Shown here: piece by piece, positions 1,809-58,910 of the stretch
Numbering within the stretch: the stretch's first letter is position 1
Layout of the letters: each line of letters opens with the position of its first letter
Assembly (NCBI GenBank): GCA_009377605.1
Contig: WHTT01000019.1
Span: 1-64,000 of the forward strand
Length of the DNA stretch: 64,000 nt
Direction: 5' to 3'
Source of the DNA: Luteitalea sp.
GTDB lineage: Bacteria; Acidobacteriota; Vicinamibacteria; Vicinamibacterales; Vicinamibacteraceae
Program-made: the position numbers and the translations under genes
Notes under the pieces: model-generated
What the model was told of the DNA's origin: nothing
What the model saw: only the letters and a program-made list of their open reading frames with translations
Database searches by the model: none

Positions 1809-4009
1809 GACTGTTTTTCGGTCAGCCATTCGCGCAGCTTCGTCCAGCGGCGACGCGTGTGTGTCCCCTTCACGGCAATTGCCAGCGCGCGAGCCTGACC
1901 GATGAGCACGACGAGCTTCCGCCCGCGCGTGATCGCGGTATACAACAAGTTTCGCTGCAGCATGACATAGTGCTGCGTCGTCAACGGGATGACGACCGCC
2001 GGATACTCCGAGCCTTGTGCCTTGTGAATCGTGGTCGCATAGGCGAGAACGAGCCGATCGAGCTCGCCAAAATCGTAGGCCACCCGGCGCCCGTCGAAGG
2101 ACACGACTATCTCGCTGGCCGCCTGATCGACAGAGACGACCAGGCCAAGGTCGCCGTTGTACACCTCCTTCTCGTAGTCGTTCTCGACCTGCATGACCTT
2201 GTCGCCGACGCCGAAGGTGTAGCCGAACCGCTCGACAGCATCCGGGCCGGGCGGATTGAGCGCGCGCTGCAGCCCGACGTTGAGCGTCCGCGCGCCGAGG
2301 GAGCCGCGGTTCATCGGACAGAGCACCTGCACGTCGTGGAATGGATGCAGGCCGTAGCGTGTCGGGATCCGTTCGCAGATGACCTGCAGGAGCTTCCGCA
2401 TCGCGACGTCGGGGTCGTCGGCTTCGACGAAGTGGAAGTCCGACTCGGTGGAGCGACCGAGGTCGGGCATCTCGCCCTGGTTGATTCGATGGGCATTGAC
2501 AATGATGCGACTGCTCGCCGCTTGGCGAAAGATGCTCGTGAGACGAACGACAGGGACGCGTGCCGAGCCAATCAGATCGGCGAGGACTTGGCCGGGACCA
2601 ACCGACGGCAACTGATCGGCATCGCCGACCAGTAGCAGCGCGGCACCGGGGCTGACGGCCCGCACCAGGCTCCACATCAGCGGCACATCGATCATCGAGA
2701 GCTCGTCGACAACGACGTGCTGGGCCTCCAGCGGATTCGATTCGTTCCGCCGAAACCGGCCCGTCCGCGGATTGACTTCGAGAAGGCGGTGAAGCGTCCG
2801 TGCCTCGAGGCCCGTTGCCTCCGACAGCCGCTTGGCCGCGCGCCCGGTAGGCGCCGCAAGGGCCGGCCGCACGCCCTTGGCGGCAAGCACCGCCACGATG
2901 GCCCGCAGCAACGTCGTCTTGCCGACGCCAGGGCCACCGGTGATGACCAGGACCTTCGTGCGAACCGCAGCGGCGAACGCCTCCGCCTGACGCTCCGAGA
3001 GGGTGAGGTGCAGCCGTGCCTCGACCCACGCGCGCGCCCGGTCGGTGTCGATCACCGGCCAGGGCGGCGCGCCCTGCGAGAGCTGGCGCAGCCGTTCGGC
3101 GAGCTGCCGCTCTGCGGAATGGAGCGCGGCGAGGAAGATGCACGGTTGGCTGTCGACCGTGTCGGCCGCGAGCGCTCCATCGGCCAGCTCGAGATCGAGG
3201 GCTTGTCCGACGATCTCCGACGAGACCCCGAGCTGTCGCGCACTCTCGGCCAGCAGCACATCGCGAGGCAGCCCGCAGTGTCCCTCGTCGAGCGCTTGGG
3301 CGAGCCGGTAGCCAAGCCCGGCACGCACGCGCATCATCGCCGTCTTTTCGATGCCGAGCCGCTCGGCAATCCGATCAGCGCTCAGGAAGCCCACGCCACG
3401 GATGTCACGGGCGAGCCGGTACGGATTCTCCGAGATCGTCTTGACGGCATCGATGCCGTAGGTCTTGAAGATGCGCACGGCACGCGCAGTGCCGACACCG
3501 TGCTGGTGCAAGAACAGCATGATGTCGCGAATCGCCCGCTGCTCCCGCCAACCGGCGGCAATACTGGACGCGCGAACTGGGCCCACGCCAGGCACGTCAC
3601 GCAGGCGATCCGGCTCGCGCTCGATGATGTCGAAGACCTCGGCACCGAATGCCGCCACCAGCTGCTTGGCGTAATGACGGCCAATGCCCTTGATCAATCC
3701 CGAGGCCAGATAGCGCTCGACGGCCTCGGCCGAGTCCGGCGGCGCCACACGGAGCCAATCCGCTTTGAACTGCAGGCCATGCGTGCGATCGTTCACCCAT
3801 CGACCTGTGGCCTGCACCTGCTCGCCAGGAGCGATGCTCGCCGCGCAGCCAATCAGCGCGACGAGGTCGCGCCGTCCCCGAACCTGTACCCGGACAACGC
3901 AGAACCCGGTCTCGAGATTGTGGAACGTCACGCGCTCCACCGCACCAGAAAGGAATTCTCGGGAATCGGGATTCGGGATTCGGCCCTTCGACCCTTCGAC
4001 TGCGCTCAC
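1805..4009 (-). CDS. recD2: RecD2-type ATP-dependent DNA helicase
   Basis: A 5'-3' superfamily 1B helicase of the RecD2/TraA class, acting in DNA repair without RecBC. The 734-residue protein has an N-terminal OB-like region (about 20-85), tandem helix-hairpin-helix segments (about 90-200), Walker A GGPGVGKTT, Walker B with DELSM, and a C-terminal UvrD-like TIHKAQGSEYPAVV motif. These are the standard family elements and the length is typical. The first dozen or so codons run through a heptamer tandem array, so the true start could lie slightly downstream. The TAG stop is supplied by the palindromic repeat at its 3' end. Confidence 0.95.
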   Translation of the reverse strand: MSAVEGSKGRIPNPDSREFLSGAVERVTFHNLETGFCVVRVQVRGRRDLVALIGCAASIAPGEQVQATGRWVNDRTHGLQFKADWLRVAPPDSAEAVERYLASGLIKGIGRHYAKQLVAAFGAEVFDIIEREPDRLRDVPGVGPVRASSIAAGWREQRAIRDIMLFLHQHGVGTARAVRIFKTYGIDAVKTISENPYRLARDIRGVGFLSADRIAERLGIEKTAMMRVRAGLGYRLAQALDEGHCGLPRDVLLAESARQLGVSSEIVGQALDLELADGALAADTVDSQPCIFLAALHSAERQLAERLRQLSQGAPPWPVIDTDRARAWVEARLHLTLSERQAEAFAAAVRTKVLVITGGPGVGKTTLLRAIVAVLAAKGVRPALAAPTGRAAKRLSEATGLEARTLHRLLEVNPRTGRFRRNESNPLEAQHVVVDELSMIDVPLMWSLVRAVSPGAALLLVGDADQLPSVGPGQVLADLIGSARVPVVRLTSIFRQAASSRIIVNAHRINQGEMPDLGRSTESDFHFVEADDPDVAMRKLLQVICERIPTRYGLHPFHDVQVLCPMNRGSLGARTLNVGLQRALNPPGPDAVERFGYTFGVGDKVMQVENDYEKEVYNGDLGLVVSVDQAASEIVVSFDGRRVAYDFGELDRLVLAYATTIHKAQGSEYPAVVIPLTTQHYVMLQRNLLYTAITRGRKLVVLIGQARALAIAVKGTHTRRRWTKLREWLTEKQS

Positions 4010-4077
4010 TTGCTTATTCCTGGTTCTTGGTCCCTGGTTCCCGTTTCCCGATTCCTGAATCCTGAACCCCGATCACG
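3961..4077. repeat. Degenerate heptamer arrays at a gene junction
   Basis: Two arrays of 7-nt period flank the boundary of the Gfo-type gene and recD2. At 3961-4002 the units follow GGGATTC and drift to GACCCTTC forms. At 4022-4077 eight units in register follow GGTTCTT, GGTCCCT, GATTCCT and relatives. The right array encodes the last residues of the oxidoreductase and the left one the first residues of recD2. Confidence 0.8.
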
Positions 4078-5818: not shown

Positions 5819-7282
5819 ATGGCAGCCCGATACATGACGAGCCCGCTACCTTTCCATCGACGCGTCGAGCAGGCGCTCGGCAACCAGCAGCTCCGCGGTG
5901 CCATTGGGCGTGCGACGGCCCGCAAAGTGGAGGGCCGCTTGGCGGCCCTGGCAGGCCTTGCGGATGCCGATCGACTACGCGACGAGGGGCGCCGCATCCG
6001 CGCAAACGCCCTTGGCCGCTTGGACGAGCAGCTCACGCGCTTCGTCGAGCAGGTCGAACGCCATGGCGGGACAGCCGTGTGGGCGCCTGACGCCGACCAC
6101 GCCGTGCGCTACCTCGTGGACCTCGCGCGCGCACGCGGCGTCAAGTCGATCGTCAAGTCCAAGTCGATGGTGACCGAGGAAATCGAGCTGAACCGCGCGA
6201 TCGAGGCGGCCGGCCTTCGCGTTGTCGAAACCGATCTCGGAGAGTACGTCATCCAGCTCGATCACGATCATCCATCGCATATCGTCGCTCCAATCATCCA
6301 CAAGACGCGGCAAGACATCGCCGCCACGTTCAAGCGAGAGGTCGGTGCCACCGACGCCGACGTGGCCGACATCCCGAGCATGACGGCGTTTGCACGCCGG
6401 AAGCTGCGCCAGGACTTCCTGACGGCCGGGATGGGCGTGAGCGGTGTGAACTTTGGGATTGCCGAGACCGGAACGCTGTGCATCTGCACCAACGAGGGGA
6501 ATGGCCGCCTCACCACGACCGTACCGCGGATTCATGTCGCCTTCATGGGCATTGAGCGTATCTTGCCCACGCTGGCCGACCTCGGGATCATGCTGCAGCT
6601 GCTGGCGCGCAGCTCGACGGGGCAGAAGCTGACCGCCTACACGAATCTCCTCACGGGACCCCGCCGGCCGGGCTTGGACGCCGAAAGTGATGGACCCGAT
6701 GAGCTCCACGTCGTCCTCGTGGACAACGGCCGGAGCCACGTGCTCGGAAGCGAGCTCGCCGAGATCCTGTATTGCATTCGCTGCGGCGCATGCTTGAATG
6801 CCTGTCCCGTATATCGCCAGATTGGGGGTCACGCGTACGGCAGCGTCTACCCTGGACCGGTTGGCGCCGTGTTCACGCCCGCAATAGGCGGCCTGGCAGA
6901 CTGGAGCGACCTCCCTCACGCCAGCAGCCTGTGTGGCGCGTGTCGGGAGGTCTGCCCCGTCCGAATCGACATTCCGCGGATGTTGCTCGCCCTGCGCGCG
7001 CGCGCCGCAACCGAAGGCCACGGACCTTGGTGGGCACGCGTGGGCCTGCGAGCCTATCGCTTCACCGCCGTTCGACCGACGCTGTTCCGCCTGGCTGGCC
7101 GCTTGACCGCGCGAGCAACGAGCTTGGTGGCGCGGGATGGGCGTATCTCGAAGCTCCCTGGACCACTGGCGGGCTGGACCAGGTATCGCGAATTCCCAGC
7201 GATGGCCCCTCGCACGTTCCAGGAACAGTGGAAAGGCAGGCGTCAGGAATCAGGTTCAGGAATCAGTAGCGCAGGCCTTTAG
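5819..7282 (+). CDS. lutB: LutB, lactate utilisation iron-sulfur protein
   Basis: Central subunit of the LutABC lactate oxidase, 487 residues. It has an N-terminal LUD domain (about 60-290) followed by a ferredoxin-like region with two [4Fe-4S] motifs, CIRCGACLNACPVY and CGACREVCPV, then a C-terminal segment. The start is ATG 5819; a second in-frame ATG lies five codons further on. The last residues and the TAG stop are encoded by a short direct repeat and the centre of a palindromic element, so the original C terminus may have been replaced. Confidence 0.94.
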   Translation: MAARYMTSPLPFHRRVEQALGNQQLRGAIGRATARKVEGRLAALAGLADADRLRDEGRRIRANALGRLDEQLTRFVEQVERHGGTAVWAPDADHAVRYLVDLARARGVKSIVKSKSMVTEEIELNRAIEAAGLRVVETDLGEYVIQLDHDHPSHIVAPIIHKTRQDIAATFKREVGATDADVADIPSMTAFARRKLRQDFLTAGMGVSGVNFGIAETGTLCICTNEGNGRLTTTVPRIHVAFMGIERILPTLADLGIMLQLLARSSTGQKLTAYTNLLTGPRRPGLDAESDGPDELHVVLVDNGRSHVLGSELAEILYCIRCGACLNACPVYRQIGGHAYGSVYPGPVGAVFTPAIGGLADWSDLPHASSLCGACREVCPVRIDIPRMLLALRARAATEGHGPWWARVGLRAYRFTAVRPTLFRLAGRLTARATSLVARDGRISKLPGPLAGWTRYREFPAMAPRTFQEQWKGRRQESGSGISSAGL

Positions 7283-7326
7283 GCCTGCCTGCGCCGCAGT
7301 TCGGCAGGCCTAAAGGCCTGCGCTAC
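7266..7326. repeat. Family A palindromic repeat, perfect inverted 24-mers
   Basis: Arms at 7266-7289 and 7303-7326 are perfectly complementary (24 of 24) around a 13-nt loop, and match the element at 1739-1808. It lies between lutB and lutC. The stop codon of lutB is the TTTAGG centre of the left arm. In RNA it would form a very stable stem inside the lut operon and could lower lutC expression or stabilise the upstream message. Confidence 0.92.
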
Positions 7327-8851: not shown

Positions 8852-8865
8852 GGTTCGACGTAGGG

Positions 8866-8935
8866 GTTCAACGTTCGAGGTTCGAGGCTCGAGCTCAACT
8901 CAACACTCACCACTCAACACTCGAGACTCAAGGTG
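8866..8935. repeat. Heptamer array, ten units in register
   Basis: Ten consecutive 7-nt units keep exact register: GTTCAAC, GTTCGAG twice, GCTCGAG, CTCAACT, CAACACT, CACCACT, CAACACT, CGAGACT and CAAGGTG. Every unit differs from its neighbour by few bases. It occupies nearly the whole gap between two divergent genes and ends at the -10 box of the MoxR-type gene. Confidence 0.85.
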
Positions 8936-13755: not shown

Positions 13756-14284
13756 GTTGTAAGAACTCCGCGCGGGTGCGCGCATCGCCGCGGAAGGTGC
13801 CGAGCATGGCGCTGGTCGTCGCATAGCAATTCTGTTTTTCGACACCGCGCATGGCCATGCAGAGATGCAATCCCTCCATGACAACGCCAACACCGAGCGG
13901 GTTGATCTTCTCGCGAATCGTCTCGGCGATTTGGTTCGTCAGACGCTCCTGCACTTGGAGTCGCCGGCTGAAGATATCGACCAACCGAGGGATCTTGCTA
14001 ATGCCGATGACCTTGTCCCGTGGGATGTAAGCGACGTGACACTTTCCGAAGAACGGGAGGAGATGGTGCTCGCAGAGGCTGTAGAAATCGATCTCTTTGA
14101 CGATCACCATCTCGCTATAATCAACCGTGAACAGGGCGCCATTGAGGATTTCATCGACGTTAGCACGGTAACCGCTGGTGAGGAACTGCAGCGCCCGCTC
14201 GACGCGCTCGGGCGTACGGCGAAGACCTTCGCGGTTGGGATCCTCGCCCAGCGCCGGTAGTAATTGAACGATCAGGTCTTGCAT
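13739..14284 (-). CDS. folE: GTP cyclohydrolase I
   Basis: Converts GTP to 7,8-dihydroneopterin triphosphate, the first step of folate biosynthesis. The 181-residue product has the zinc-binding [14 protein letters not shown] near residue 70 and the second cysteine in [11 protein letters not shown], so it is the zinc-dependent IA type. ATG 14284 is chosen over a start six codons upstream because a minus-strand TACAAT lies exactly six bases before it. The start codon overlaps that of the divergent TPR gene within a shared CATG. Confidence 0.96.
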
Positions 14285-15047
14285 GAAGATATTGTACCTC
14301 ACGGTTTTCGTTGCCTGCGGAGTTCCCTCTACAGTCGCTGCGGCGCTCCTGCCAGCTTCGAGAGCCGTGACCGCCCTGGCTCAGACATCGTTAACGCCAG
14401 ATCCTGATGCGCTCTATGCCGAGCGAGAAGACCCTGACAAGGCGCGTTCGGCGGTCGAGATCTGGCAGGCACGCGCTGCTGCTGATCCGACTGATTTCGA
14501 GTCCACCTGGAAGGTCGCACGAGCGATGTACTGGATCGGTAGCCACGGCCCCAAGGAGGCCAGACGGGCGGATCTCGAGGTCGGGATGAAGGCCGCACGC
14601 GAAGCCATCGCGCTGAACGAGAACCGCCCGGAGGGACACTTCTGGCTCGCGGCCACGATGGGCAAGCTCGCGGAGGACTCCAGGATGGCCGGTCTCCGGT
14701 ACCGCGGCGCAATCAAGGAGGAGTTGGAAACGGTATTGCGCCTCGATCCCGCCTTCCAGCAGGGCTCCGCGGATCGCGCGCTCGGCCGCTGGTACTATCG
14801 CGTGCCTGGCCTGTTCGGTGGCAGCAAGGAGAAGTCCGAGCAGCACCTCCGGCAGTCATTGAAGTACAACCCGAACAGCACGGCAACTCTCTTCTTCCTG
14901 GCCGAGACCCTCATCGCGCTGGACCGGAAAGAGGAGGCGCGCACGACGCTCGAAAAGCTGCTCGCCGCGCCGGCAGATTCGGAGTGGGGCCCGGAAGACC
15001 GCGAGTTCAAGGCGGCGGGCTCGAAGCTGCGGGGGGATCTGGAGTGA
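14283..15047 (+). CDS. Secreted TPR-type protein
   Basis: A 254-residue protein with an N-terminal hydrophobic signal-like segment (about 1-35, ending near ALAQT). Repeated helical pairs follow, for example [38 protein letters not shown] and [19 protein letters not shown], typical of tetratricopeptide repeats. It is probably an exported or membrane-anchored scaffold of unknown partner. The ATG overlaps folE's ATG on the other strand; TTG 14292 is a possible alternative. The stop codon lies in the first unit of an octamer array. Confidence 0.75.
14291..14296 (-). promoter_or_regulatory. TACAAT -10 box, leaderless folE
   Basis: On the minus strand TACAAT is followed by six bases and then ATG 14284 of folE. 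The box lies inside the first codons of the divergent TPR gene. Confidence 0.5.
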
Positions 15048-15190
15048 CAGGGTGAGGGGGTGACAAGGTGAGGGGGTGAGGGGGTGACAAGGTGACAAGG
15101 TGACCGCGGGGCCTGAAGGCCCCGCGCTACAGACGCTCAAACGACCCCGTCACCTTGTCACCTTGTCACCTTGTCACCTTGTCACCCTTG
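15043..15190. repeat. Facing octamer arrays between convergent genes
   Basis: From 15051 to 15106 seven units of GGTGACAA or GGTGAGGG keep exact 8-nt register. From 15147 to 15186 five units of the complement, TTGTCACC, run the other way. Between them, 15105-15126 is a palindrome CGCGGGGCCT-ga-AGGCCCCGCG followed by CTAC, a relative of family A. The TPR gene's TGA stop falls in the first degenerate unit. The arms could pair into a stem of up to about 40 bp and act as a bidirectional terminator. Confidence 0.9.
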
Positions 15191-15202
15191 ATCACTTGCC
15201 CT

Positions 15203-16078
15203 TTACTTCTCGTAGCTGTAAAATCCCCGCCCCGCCTTGCGCCCGACGTGCCCGGCAAGAACCATACGCTTCAGGAGAGGCGGCGGAGCGTAGGCCGGCT
15301 CGCGAAATTCCTCGTACATGATGTTCGCAATGTAGTACGTCGTGTCGATCCCGACGAAGTCCAGGAGCGTAAACGGTCCCATCGGATGACCGCAACCGAG
15401 CTTCATCCCGTTATCGATGTCTTCGATGCTGCCCAAACCGTTCTCGTAGGCCCGAACCGCATCGAGGAGGTACGGCACGAGCAACCGGTTGACAATGAAG
15501 CCGGGTCGATCGGGCGCCACTATCGGCTCCTTGCCCAGTGCACGTGCAAGCGCCATCAGCCGCGAGTGCGTCTCGTCGCTCGTCGTCAGTGCGCGAATGA
15601 CCTCGACGAGCTTCATCAGCGGCACCGGATTGAAGAAATGCAGGCCGCCAAACCGGTCTGGCCGTGTGGTGCTCGCCGCAAGCTCGGTGATACAAAGCGA
15701 CGACGTGTTCGAAGCCATGACCGTGTCCGGCTTCACCACGGCCTCGAGCTGACGATAGGCTGCTCGCTTCGCGTCGAGGTTCTCGATGATGGCTTCGATG
15801 ACGAGATCGCACTGCTTCAAGTCCTCATAGCGAGTGGTCCCGGTGATCTGCGCGAGGGTGGCAGCCTTCACATCTTCCGTCACCTTGCCTCGTGATACGC
15901 CATCACTCAAGAACCGCTCGATGCGACCAAGGCCCTTGCGCAACAGCGCCTGGTCGACCTCGAGCACAATCGTCCGGTAGCCGCTCTGCGCGGCTACCTG
16001 CGCGATGCCAGAGCCCATGAGGCCACAGCCCAACACACCTACGACGTTGACTTCCCGCATTGGCGGTTCTTTCTGCAT
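15203..16078 (-). CDS. 3-hydroxybutyryl-CoA dehydrogenase
   Basis: NAD-dependent 3-hydroxyacyl-CoA dehydrogenase of fatty-acid or butanoate metabolism, cytoplasmic, 291 residues. The Rossmann motif GCGLMGSGIAQ lies near residue 17, SNTSSL near 124, the catalytic His region GLHFFNPVPLMKLVEV near 144, and the C-terminal helical domain ends YANIMYEEF-like. ATG 16078 overlaps the stop of the preceding receptor gene as ATGA; ATG 16060 is an alternative and gives a more usual N terminus. Its link to a receptor gene is odd. Confidence 0.93.
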   Translation of the reverse strand: MQKEPPMREVNVVGVLGCGLMGSGIAQVAAQSGYRTIVLEVDQALLRKGLGRIERFLSDGVSRGKVTEDVKAATLAQITGTTRYEDLKQCDLVIEAIIENLDAKRAAYRQLEAVVKPDTVMASNTSSLCITELAASTTRPDRFGGLHFFNPVPLMKLVEVIRALTTSDETHSRLMALARALGKEPIVAPDRPGFIVNRLLVPYLLDAVRAYENGLGSIEDIDNGMKLGCGHPMGPFTLLDFVGIDTTYYIANIMYEEFREPAYAPPPLLKRMVLAGHVGRKAGRGFYSYEK

Positions 16079-39379: not shown

Positions 39380-39553
39380 GAGGTGACGGGGGTGACAAGG
39401 TGATGGGGTGACAAGGTGAGGGGTGACAAGGTGACAAGGTGATAGGGTGGCTCGAGGGCACGTGGCAAACATCGAGCGGCATAGACGCGTCGCCGCATTC
39501 ACCCGATGCTCGAATCACCCGGTCACCTTGTCACCCCGTCACCCCATCACCCT
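39375..39553. repeat. Facing octamer arrays between convergent genes
   Basis: From 39375 to 39450 about nine GGTGACAA or GGTGAGGG units run rightward, with two units of 7 or 9 nt. From about 39516 to 39553 the complementary units run leftward. Both flanking genes stop inside the first unit: the NUDIX gene at 39377-39379 and the YjbQ gene at 39549-39547. It has the same layout and word as 15043-15190, with 65 nt of unrelated DNA in the middle. Confidence 0.9.
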
Positions 39554-39969: not shown

Positions 39970-40090
39970 GGCTCTTGGTTCTTGGTTCTTGGTTCTTGGT
40001 TCTTCGTGCGATGGCGCCCCGATGCTTCACCGCGGCCCCTGCGTGCGCCGCCGCACCAAGCACCAGGGACTATGGACCAAGGACCAAATT
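39970..40090. repeat. Two heptamer arrays upstream of yjbQ and at the tsaD end
   Basis: 39970-40004 is five units of GGTTCTT in register, directly upstream of the minus-strand yjbQ gene. 40056-40090 is five degenerate units related to CCAAGGA, also in exact 7-nt register. The TAG stop of tsaD (40072-40070) falls in the second array. Confidence 0.85.
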
Positions 40091-43242: not shown

Positions 43243-44495
43243 AGCGACACGTCCTCGTCTTGAACCAACACGGTGAGAATCGGGGAGACGAGGCAGCCAT
43301 GCGCGCCATGCTCGTCTCGCTGGACGAGGCCCTGGGCGGCGCGAGCTTCACGATTCTCTACCAGTACCGGGATCGCTCGCTGCGGATGGAGCTCCCGCAG
43401 GACGTGCAGATGCTGCCGATCATCATGCCGGTGAGCGAGGCGGCGCGATTGACGCTCTTCGGTCTCGGCACCTTGGTCAGTGCGAGGCTCGGGCAGCCCG
43501 TGCTCGGCAGGCTCGGTAAGGCCATCACCGACGCTTACGAGCGCGCAGACCTGGTGCTCTCGGCGCCTGGTGGTCCGTACTTTGGCGACATCTACGCCAA
43601 TCACGAGCTCGTCCATTGGTTCTTCGTCTGGCTCGCAAAGCGCTACCGCAAGCCACTGATGCTGTACTCGCCATCGGCTGGACCGTTCGCGAACCCCGTT
43701 CTCAACCAGGTGCGCCGTCGGCTCTACCGCGCGTTCGATGTCGTGTGTGCGCGAGAGCCCATCTCAGCTCGTATGATCGAGGGGCTGGTCGGTCAGGGTC
43801 TCACCGTGCACGTCACGGCAGATTCCGCCCTCCAGGTTCGCATGCCGCCGATGGGGCGGGCGCAGTACTTCGGCTCGAGCCGCAGCCACCTGGCGGCTCG
43901 CTTCATCGTCTGCACGTCGGTCATCGACTATGCGTTTCCCGGCGACGACGATCCGAAAGGCCTGAAGTCCGTCTACGAGCGCGCACTGATCGATCTGATG
44001 ACCCACCTCTCGAAGCGGCGCGATTGTCATTTCCTCTTCCTGCCCCAGCTGCATGGCTCGGTGCATACCGACGTGCCGTACCTGCGGCACATCGCGCAGC
44101 GGCTTCCGTCCGGTCTGAGCTGGGAGATCGTGGACGACCACCTGGATTCCGACACGCAGCGCGGCATCTTTGGAATGGCTGACACGTTTATCGCGAGCCG
44201 CTATCATCCGGCGATCTTCGGCAGCTCAGCGGGAGTTCCAGGCCTGTGTTTCTACTATGAGCACAAGGCGCTGGGCTTCATGACACAGCTCGGGATGGAA
44301 CGGTTCGCCTTCGACATCCGCAAGCTCGACTCCCGCGCCCTGTGTGAGGCAATGGACGAGATTCTCGAGAACGGCGCAGCGCTGGCTCGCGAGATTGAAT
44401 TGCGCTTGCCTGCTCTGGTCGCGCAAGCAAGGCGGAGCACCGAGCTCGCGGTGGCGCTCGTCGAGTCGGGAGGCGCTAGTGCCCTGTCTCAGTGA
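43239..44495 (+). CDS. Polysaccharide pyruvyl transferase family protein
   Basis: A 418-residue protein with the N-terminal LNQHGENRGDEAAMRAML motif and LSAPGGPYFGD near residue 107, as in CsaB/WcaK-type pyruvyl transferases that add ketal-linked pyruvate from PEP to glycans. The C-terminal half has FIASRYHPAIFGSSAGVP, the family donor-site block. Start GTG 43239. The last three residues and TGA stop are formed by the left end of an inserted 166-bp element. Confidence 0.88.
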   Translation: MKRHVLVLNQHGENRGDEAAMRAMLVSLDEALGGASFTILYQYRDRSLRMELPQDVQMLPIIMPVSEAARLTLFGLGTLVSARLGQPVLGRLGKAITDAYERADLVLSAPGGPYFGDIYANHELVHWFFVWLAKRYRKPLMLYSPSAGPFANPVLNQVRRRLYRAFDVVCAREPISARMIEGLVGQGLTVHVTADSALQVRMPPMGRAQYFGSSRSHLAARFIVCTSVIDYAFPGDDDPKGLKSVYERALIDLMTHLSKRRDCHFLFLPQLHGSVHTDVPYLRHIAQRLPSGLSWEIVDDHLDSDTQRGIFGMADTFIASRYHPAIFGSSAGVPGLCFYYEHKALGFMTQLGMERFAFDIRKLDSRALCEAMDEILENGAALAREIELRLPALVAQARRSTELAVALVESGGASALSQ

Positions 44496-44641
44496 TTCGC
44501 GACATAATTCCCGGGCGGGGCATCCCGCCTGGCGTCGTTGCTCGTCGGTCAAATACGGCCTGTATGCTCCCTCCTCGCGCCTCGCCAGCCGGGCGCCGCG
44601 CTCCGGGACTTATGCCACGAATCACTGAGACAGGACACTAG
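44476..44641. mobile_element. 166-bp MITE-like element with 39-bp inverted ends
   Basis: The ends 44476-44514 and 44603-44641 are inverted with 35 of 39 matches, each bounded by CTAG. No coding capacity is present, so it is non-autonomous. Its left end provides the stop of the pyruvyl-transferase gene and its right end abuts the ATG of the next gene. The internal GGTCAAATACGGCCTGTATG region could carry a promoter, though no convincing -35/-10 spacing was found. Confidence 0.88.
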
Positions 44642-58842: not shown

Positions 58843-58910
58843 CCTTGACCCCTTGACCCCTTGACCCCTTGACCCCTTGATCCCTTGATCCCTTGACCCT
58901 GCCCCTACTC
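58786..58910. repeat. Nonamer and octamer arrays between thuA and the propeller gene
   Basis: 58786-58830 holds degenerate 9-nt units (CACAAAGAA, CACGAACAG, CGAGAAGAC) that encode the ThuA signal peptide on the minus strand. 58843-58905 holds eight units of an octamer, minus-strand AGGGGTCA, in register. The TAG stop of the propeller gene (58907-58905) falls in the last, degenerate unit. Confidence 0.85.

Follow-up and report, generated by a model that had tools for sequence, protein, structure and literature searches.

The window analysed here, a stretch of 64,000 nucleotides from contig WHTT01000019.1 of Luteitalea sp., contains a convergent gene pair, encoding a TPR protein (+ strand) and a 3-hydroxyacyl-CoA dehydrogenase (- strand), whose junction is occupied by two facing arrays of an octameric repeat. 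The left array comprises 7 GGTGA units with exact 8-bp spacing (starts at 15051, 15059, 15067, 15075, 15083, 15091 and 15099), separated by the spacers GGG, CAA, GGG, GGG, CAA and CAA in this order, and is faced by a row of 5 TCACC units (starts at 15150, 15158, 15166, 15174 and 15182). An earlier note on this DNA had described seven units in register meeting five complementary ones across a central palindrome, placed them exactly between two converging genes and assigned the TPR stop codon to the first unit; the unit starts, the gene orientations and the position of the TGA (15045-15047, in the degenerate unit 15043-15050) confirm this description. The following features are relevant to the analysis:

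14283 to 15047, + strand: gene for a TPR / TAtT-domain protein of 254 aa, upstream of the arrays; stop codon in the array register
15043 to 15050, + strand: degenerate first octamer unit AGTGACAG, in the same register as the array; its TGA at 15045-15047 serves as stop codon for the TPR gene
15051 to 15103, + strand: left array of 7 GGTGANNN units in 8-bp register, the last unit counted to GGTGA only
15105 to 15130, - strand: central GTAG-type REP, GTAG-CGCGGGGCC-TTCA-GGCCCCGCG, with a 9-bp stem and a 4-nt loop
15131 to 15149, no strand assigned: remaining inner core AGACGCTCAAACGACCCCG (- strand CGGGGTCGTTTGAGCGTCT), with a similar stretch in another element
15150 to 15186, - strand: right array of 5 units complementary to GGTGACAA, with TCACC in every 8 bp
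15203 to 16078, - strand: converging 3-hydroxyacyl-CoA dehydrogenase gene, ending 16 bp past the right array
39391 to 39551, no strand assigned: second octamer element of the window; the genes on its two sides, NUDIX (+) and UPF0047 (-), converge

On the + strand, the centre of the element reads CGCGGGGCC-TGAA-GGCCCCGCG (15105-15126), a GC palindrome of 9 bp, followed by CTAC. This core, but not the arrays, has the form of a GTAG REP, i.e. a palindrome of 20-40 bp with GTAG at one end. The REP core recurs with 90% identity over 41 bp inside the octamer element at G000:C1:68689 (G000 being the window's genome), and GTAGCGCGGGGCC is present in 5 copies in 1.27 Mb. The genome also contains two matches to Y1_Tnp above the cut-off, one of them with an internal stop, which represent candidate RAYT-type proteins. 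A close relative of the remaining inner core, GAGGTCGTTTGAGCGTC, lies in the element at G000:C64:30368-30467.

The three-unit pattern GGTGANNNGGTGANNNGGTGA matches 14 times in the window versus 0 times in 100 dinucleotide shuffles, and 519 times genome-wide versus 0 times for a reversed-pattern control, which excludes a chance origin of the octamer arrays. The suggestion that RNA from either strand could form a long stem was likewise upheld, since the predicted folds lie far beyond those of shuffled sequences (+ strand: -105.2 kcal/mol, shuffles -59.2, z -10.4; - strand: -91.6 kcal/mol, z -9.0). As each unit consists of GGTGA and three variable bases, part of this stem would pair as GGUGA:UCACC blocks. 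The spacer triplets of the two arms match at a frequency of 0.179, compared with 0.185 by chance (p 0.59), so that concerted evolution of the arms leaves no signal and perfect pairing is under no visible selection. The element is not a canonical intrinsic terminator, because the required combination of a GC hairpin and a U-tract is absent, with 0 terminator-like sites in 14800-15500; moreover, in none of 32 octamer cases is the 3' arm followed by TTTT. Across all convergent gene ends, U-tract terminators hardly exceed the shuffle level (14 of 186, expected 7.3). An Rfam identity was also rejected, as the search returned just chance hairpin matches far under the gathering scores, mostly to eukaryotic miRNA families.

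Placement of arrays at gene 3' ends

Junctions of at least 60 bp were surveyed for arrays of three or more GGTGA units in 1.27 Mb of contiguous tiles, covering 19% of the genome (all or parts of contigs C1-C10 and C18 and of the window), using our own hexamer-based gene caller rather than a published one. Arrays are present at 37 junctions in this sample. The layout, which the earlier note had linked to convergent pairs, does recur at 11 of 90 convergent junctions, but it is also found at 22 of 342 tandem junctions and, among divergent ones, at 4 of 140. Convergent junctions thus carry it most frequently (12%, versus 6% of tandem and 3% of divergent junctions; p = 0.075 and p = 0.011, respectively), but its rate per gene 3' end is equal, at about 6%, in convergent (11/180) and tandem (22/342) positions, so that the comparison of junction types proposed in that note has a mixed outcome. 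Tandem sites, which adjoin the upstream stop codon, are twice as numerous as convergent ones. A device specific to convergent junctions is therefore ruled out, and the octamer array is a feature of gene 3' ends. In line with this notion, 35 of 36 stop-side distances fall between -36 and +31 nt relative to the stop of the gene next to the array, and in 21 of 36 cases the TGA of this codon falls into the array register, where one in eight would be expected. In the second element of the window (39391-39551), both stop codons are located at or inside the arrays according to our own gene calls. At this NUDIX/UPF0047 junction, a heptamer stretch of the GGTGCAA type with a CTGTCTCAGG core is present in the genus-mate. 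The window additionally contains a lone CCCCTTGA octamer array of seven copies at a tandem junction (58843-58899), for which no partner was found.

Inverted repeats in general are enriched in similar positions. When each junction of 40-500 bp was scored for its best inverted repeat, strong ones (score of at least 18) were obtained for 33 of 93 convergent junctions, compared with 12 of 126 divergent (p = 3e-6) and 60 of 369 tandem ones (p = 1e-4). In tandem junctions of at least 120 bp, the inverted repeat is separated from the stop of the upstream gene by a median of 3 nt and from the start of the downstream gene by 43 nt, with 41 of 47 repeats being closer to the stop. Among these inverted repeats are pairs of GTAG REPs and the array families, as well as a MITE-like element whose arms are 59 nt long. 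GTAG-REP pairs GTAGCGCAGGCCTTTAGGCCTGCC are located at ~1737-1809 and ~7265-7326 in the window. The MITE-like repeat (44476-44641; 59-nt arms, CTAGTG...CACTAG) overlaps a gene end, has related copies at G000 C8:7827, C3:14503, C5:15293 and C3:18407 and is absent in the genus-mate, whose two genes overlap there. The word GTAGCGCAGGCCT occurs 36 times in the 1.27 Mb of the window's genome and 0 times in 0.56 Mb of the genus-mate.

Polarity and diversity of the repeat units

Every facing pair in the 1.27-Mb sample has GGTGA first and TCACC last. Genome-wide, the facing pattern with a gap of 45-75 nt produces 46 matches on each strand, the two counts agreeing because the pattern is its own complement, whereas the opposite polarity produces 0. 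In the genus, GGTGA shares this layout with other unit families of 7-9 bp, about 29 in all. Arrays with periods of 7 and 8 are intergenic in 97 and coding in 17 cases, with intergenic DNA making up 12.9%, and the genome carries 9-bp intergenic arrays in addition. In the window, heptamer arrays of other units (TTCTTGG, TTCGGGA, GGTTCGA/ACTCAAC), facing or neighbouring and intergenic, are present at 39973-40087, 3959-4073 and 8865-8931. Facing polarity could be assigned for 85 arrays from 29 unit families in both genomes of the genus, with some of these families being close variants of each other. A single polarity is seen in each of the 19 families that have two or more members, and in 26 of 27 informative families the 5' arm contains more G than C (p = 4e-7; 71 arrays vs 1), at a background skew of 0.02 behind stop codons without inverted repeats. 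Owing to the self-complementarity of the elements, the G-rich arm would come first in both converging transcripts. Both the invariable facing polarity and the G-first rule point to a mechanism or constraint. The commonest octamer spacer, CAA (113 of about 312), gives two-G runs only, and GGG spacers give five-G runs.

Turnover and copying within the genus

Named relatives in the genome collection assign the organism to the Vicinamibacterales (Acidobacteriota). Both genomes of the genus contain octamer arrays, with 519 and 77 three-unit matches; none were detected in five sister-genus genomes, and a stricter octamer pattern was absent from the further genomes examined in the family and order (0/38). 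By this comparison, GGTGA arrays are confined to this genus. Within it, individual sites differ. The orthologous TPR/dehydrogenase junction of the genus-mate (dehydrogenase 85% and TPR protein 74% identical) has no GGTGA array; instead, AAGGGGTA arrays face each other there across a different inner inverted repeat, and the inverted-repeat scores of the two junctions, 25 and 28, are equally strong. Among six octamer junctions with a sampled orthologue, 2 keep GGTGA, 3 have another facing array or hairpin and 1 has a short unrelated sequence, according to our own reading of the sequences. Other junctions contain an element in one species, with the genes overlapping or lying 16-36 bp apart in the other. 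At a score of 12, both species have an element at 5 of the convergent orthologous junctions, only one of them at 6 and 4, respectively, and neither at 1, so that an element in one species is no predictor for the other. These unit swaps, empty orthologous sites and one-sided occurrences show a fast turnover of the elements.

Two octamer elements, at G000:C1:110009-110190 and C2:89076-89255, are 95% identical over 182 bp in spite of unlike flanks, one of them being located in a divergent junction. Their similarity stops at the array ends, which shows that a whole element was copied. One inverted pair of cores is 83% identical over 78 bp. A single conserved MITE-like core for all elements is ruled out, because most cores are unrelated; the word GCTCGA recurs weakly among them. 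The core GGGCTGTCTCAGG is present in 18 copies in 0.56 Mb of the genus-mate (G001) and in 0 copies in 1.27 Mb of the window's genome; at the genus-mate junctions that we read, it lies inside heptamer-array elements.

Possible roles and relation to known repeat systems

We consider two close readings of these observations. The one we favour, to which we give an even chance, is that 15043-15190 represents a copy of a composite inverted-repeat family with a role in U-tract-independent transcript ending and/or the protection of 3' ends. The outer arms, formed by GGTGA octamer arrays, enclose a short inner core, in this case a GTAG-type REP, and the elements settle directly behind stop codons. Since the element is self-complementary, transcripts entering it from either flanking gene would run through the G-rich arm before the C-rich one and thus form a similar long hairpin, which may end and/or protect their 3' ends without a U-tract, and do so bidirectionally at convergent junctions. 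A putative termination role of the hairpin at this site is plausible. The presence of elements at sites where the sister-species genes overlap or lie only 16-36 bp apart argues against all of them being universally strong terminators. It is tempting to extend this idea to any 7-9 bp unit in facing pairs that is G-rich first in both directions, such that lineages could swap the unit but keep the layout of a bidirectional terminator or 3' protector lacking a U-tract; in this broad form, we regard it as unlikely. The G-first rule could then act as a functional signal, for instance by keeping the C-rich arm from exposure to Rho or by promoting RNA:DNA hybrids.

The other reading, which we judge somewhat less probable than transcript ending or protection, holds that the elements are neutral or selfish repeats without a role, which may grow by slippage and copying and would survive only behind stop codons, as arrays in promoters, ribosome sites and coding sequence are purged. 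It gains support from the fast turnover, with empty orthologous sites and replacement by unrelated units, from the copying of a whole element, from the independent variation of the arms, from insertions where the sister-species genes overlap or nearly touch, and from several other repeat families, such as the GTAG REPs and the MITE-like element with 59-nt arms, that share the sites. The unmatched arm triplets and the insertions between closely spaced genes speak for weak or no selection. However, neutral growth would not lead one to expect the strict facing polarity (46 vs 0), the G-first rule in 26 of 27 unit families or the fact that most octamer sites are paired and self-complementary. Very unlikely, in our view, is a sequence-specific binding array, in which GGTGA in every 8 bp would be recognised by a protein that binds DNA or RNA, or else by the UCACC in the tail of the 16S rRNA, with the triplet as a spacer. 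GGTGA is more constant than the triplet, and, by our own reading, GGGGGUGA could pair with the anti-Shine-Dalgarno tail given one G-U, but detection seeded with GGTGA inflates its conservation (about 80% vs 43-62% per position in a less biased estimate), and other families of the same layout have unrelated units. We give even less credence to a universal translation-stop cassette whose unit would provide both converging genes with TGA in all three frames, a notion prompted by the 21 of 36 stop codons in array register: AAGGGATC, GGTCCTT, GGTTCGA, GGTTCTT and GGTGCGA, by our own reading, contain no stop in gene sense, and these families of like layout and position lead us to reject such a cassette as a general role.

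If it is the layout rather than the sequence that is kept, the genus shows 3'-end hairpins rebuilt from unrelated short repeats. It would then offer a natural test set, consisting of two sister species with a different unit or no element at the same junction, for the study of transcript ending in bacteria without obvious U-tract terminators. G-first polarity, in particular, represents a simple, general and directly testable rule.

The closest known case are the GGGAATC heptamer arrays of Xanthomonas, which are dispersed and intergenic, with 70-75 facing-pair cases per genome, hug or overlap stop codons, occur more often at convergent than at divergent junctions and coincide with transcript starts or stops more often than controls (PMC4692102, PLoS One 2015). 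Common to both systems are facing pairs, proximity to stop codons, the preference for convergent over divergent junctions and a G-rich unit; tandem units of 7-9 bp are likewise intergenic and dispersed here (97 vs 17 for periods 7 and 8), and inverted pairs of one polarity lie near stops (46 vs 0; 35/36). The unit differs, being GGTGANNN instead of GGGAATC with its G-tracts for three-layered quadruplexes. Unlike the Xanthomonas arrays, those described here are based on an octamer with three variable bases, occur mostly in pairs, enclose an inner core (a REP at this site) and belong to dozens of coexisting unit families, for which the potential to form three-layered guanine quadruplexes is not general.

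GTAG-tagged REPs and REP dimers consist of short palindromes that lie close to 3' ends, in convergent as well as unidirectional junctions (PMC3733652). The core described here resembles them in its GTAG tag, 9-bp stem and 4-nt loop and in the Y1-transposase (RAYT-type) matches of its genome, and GTAG REPs account for the inner palindrome at 15105-15130. In contrast to such REPs, however, most octamer elements have no REP core, and their arms are tandem arrays without a fixed sequence. Hairpin terminators at convergent genes are a further related case, and uptake-signal pairs are reported to be used as terminators (PMC1852404). Like the elements described here, such pairs are made of two inverted copies of a recurring genomic word, lie at gene ends and can be used from both strands. 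The octamer elements differ from these pairs and from hairpin terminators in that they have no U-tract, arrays rather than single words, no evidence of uptake and arms of ~20-80 nt. Cyanobacterial STRR heptamers are short tandem intergenic repeats of 7 bp; their unit is different, and to our knowledge they have not been described as facing pairs around a core. In the literature searched, we found nothing on intergenic repeats of Vicinamibacter and no description of G-first polarity across many unit families. Compared with these systems, the new aspects are an octamer unit with a variable triplet, dozens of coexisting unit families of one layout, the G-first rule across these families and the swap of the unit at one junction between sister species.
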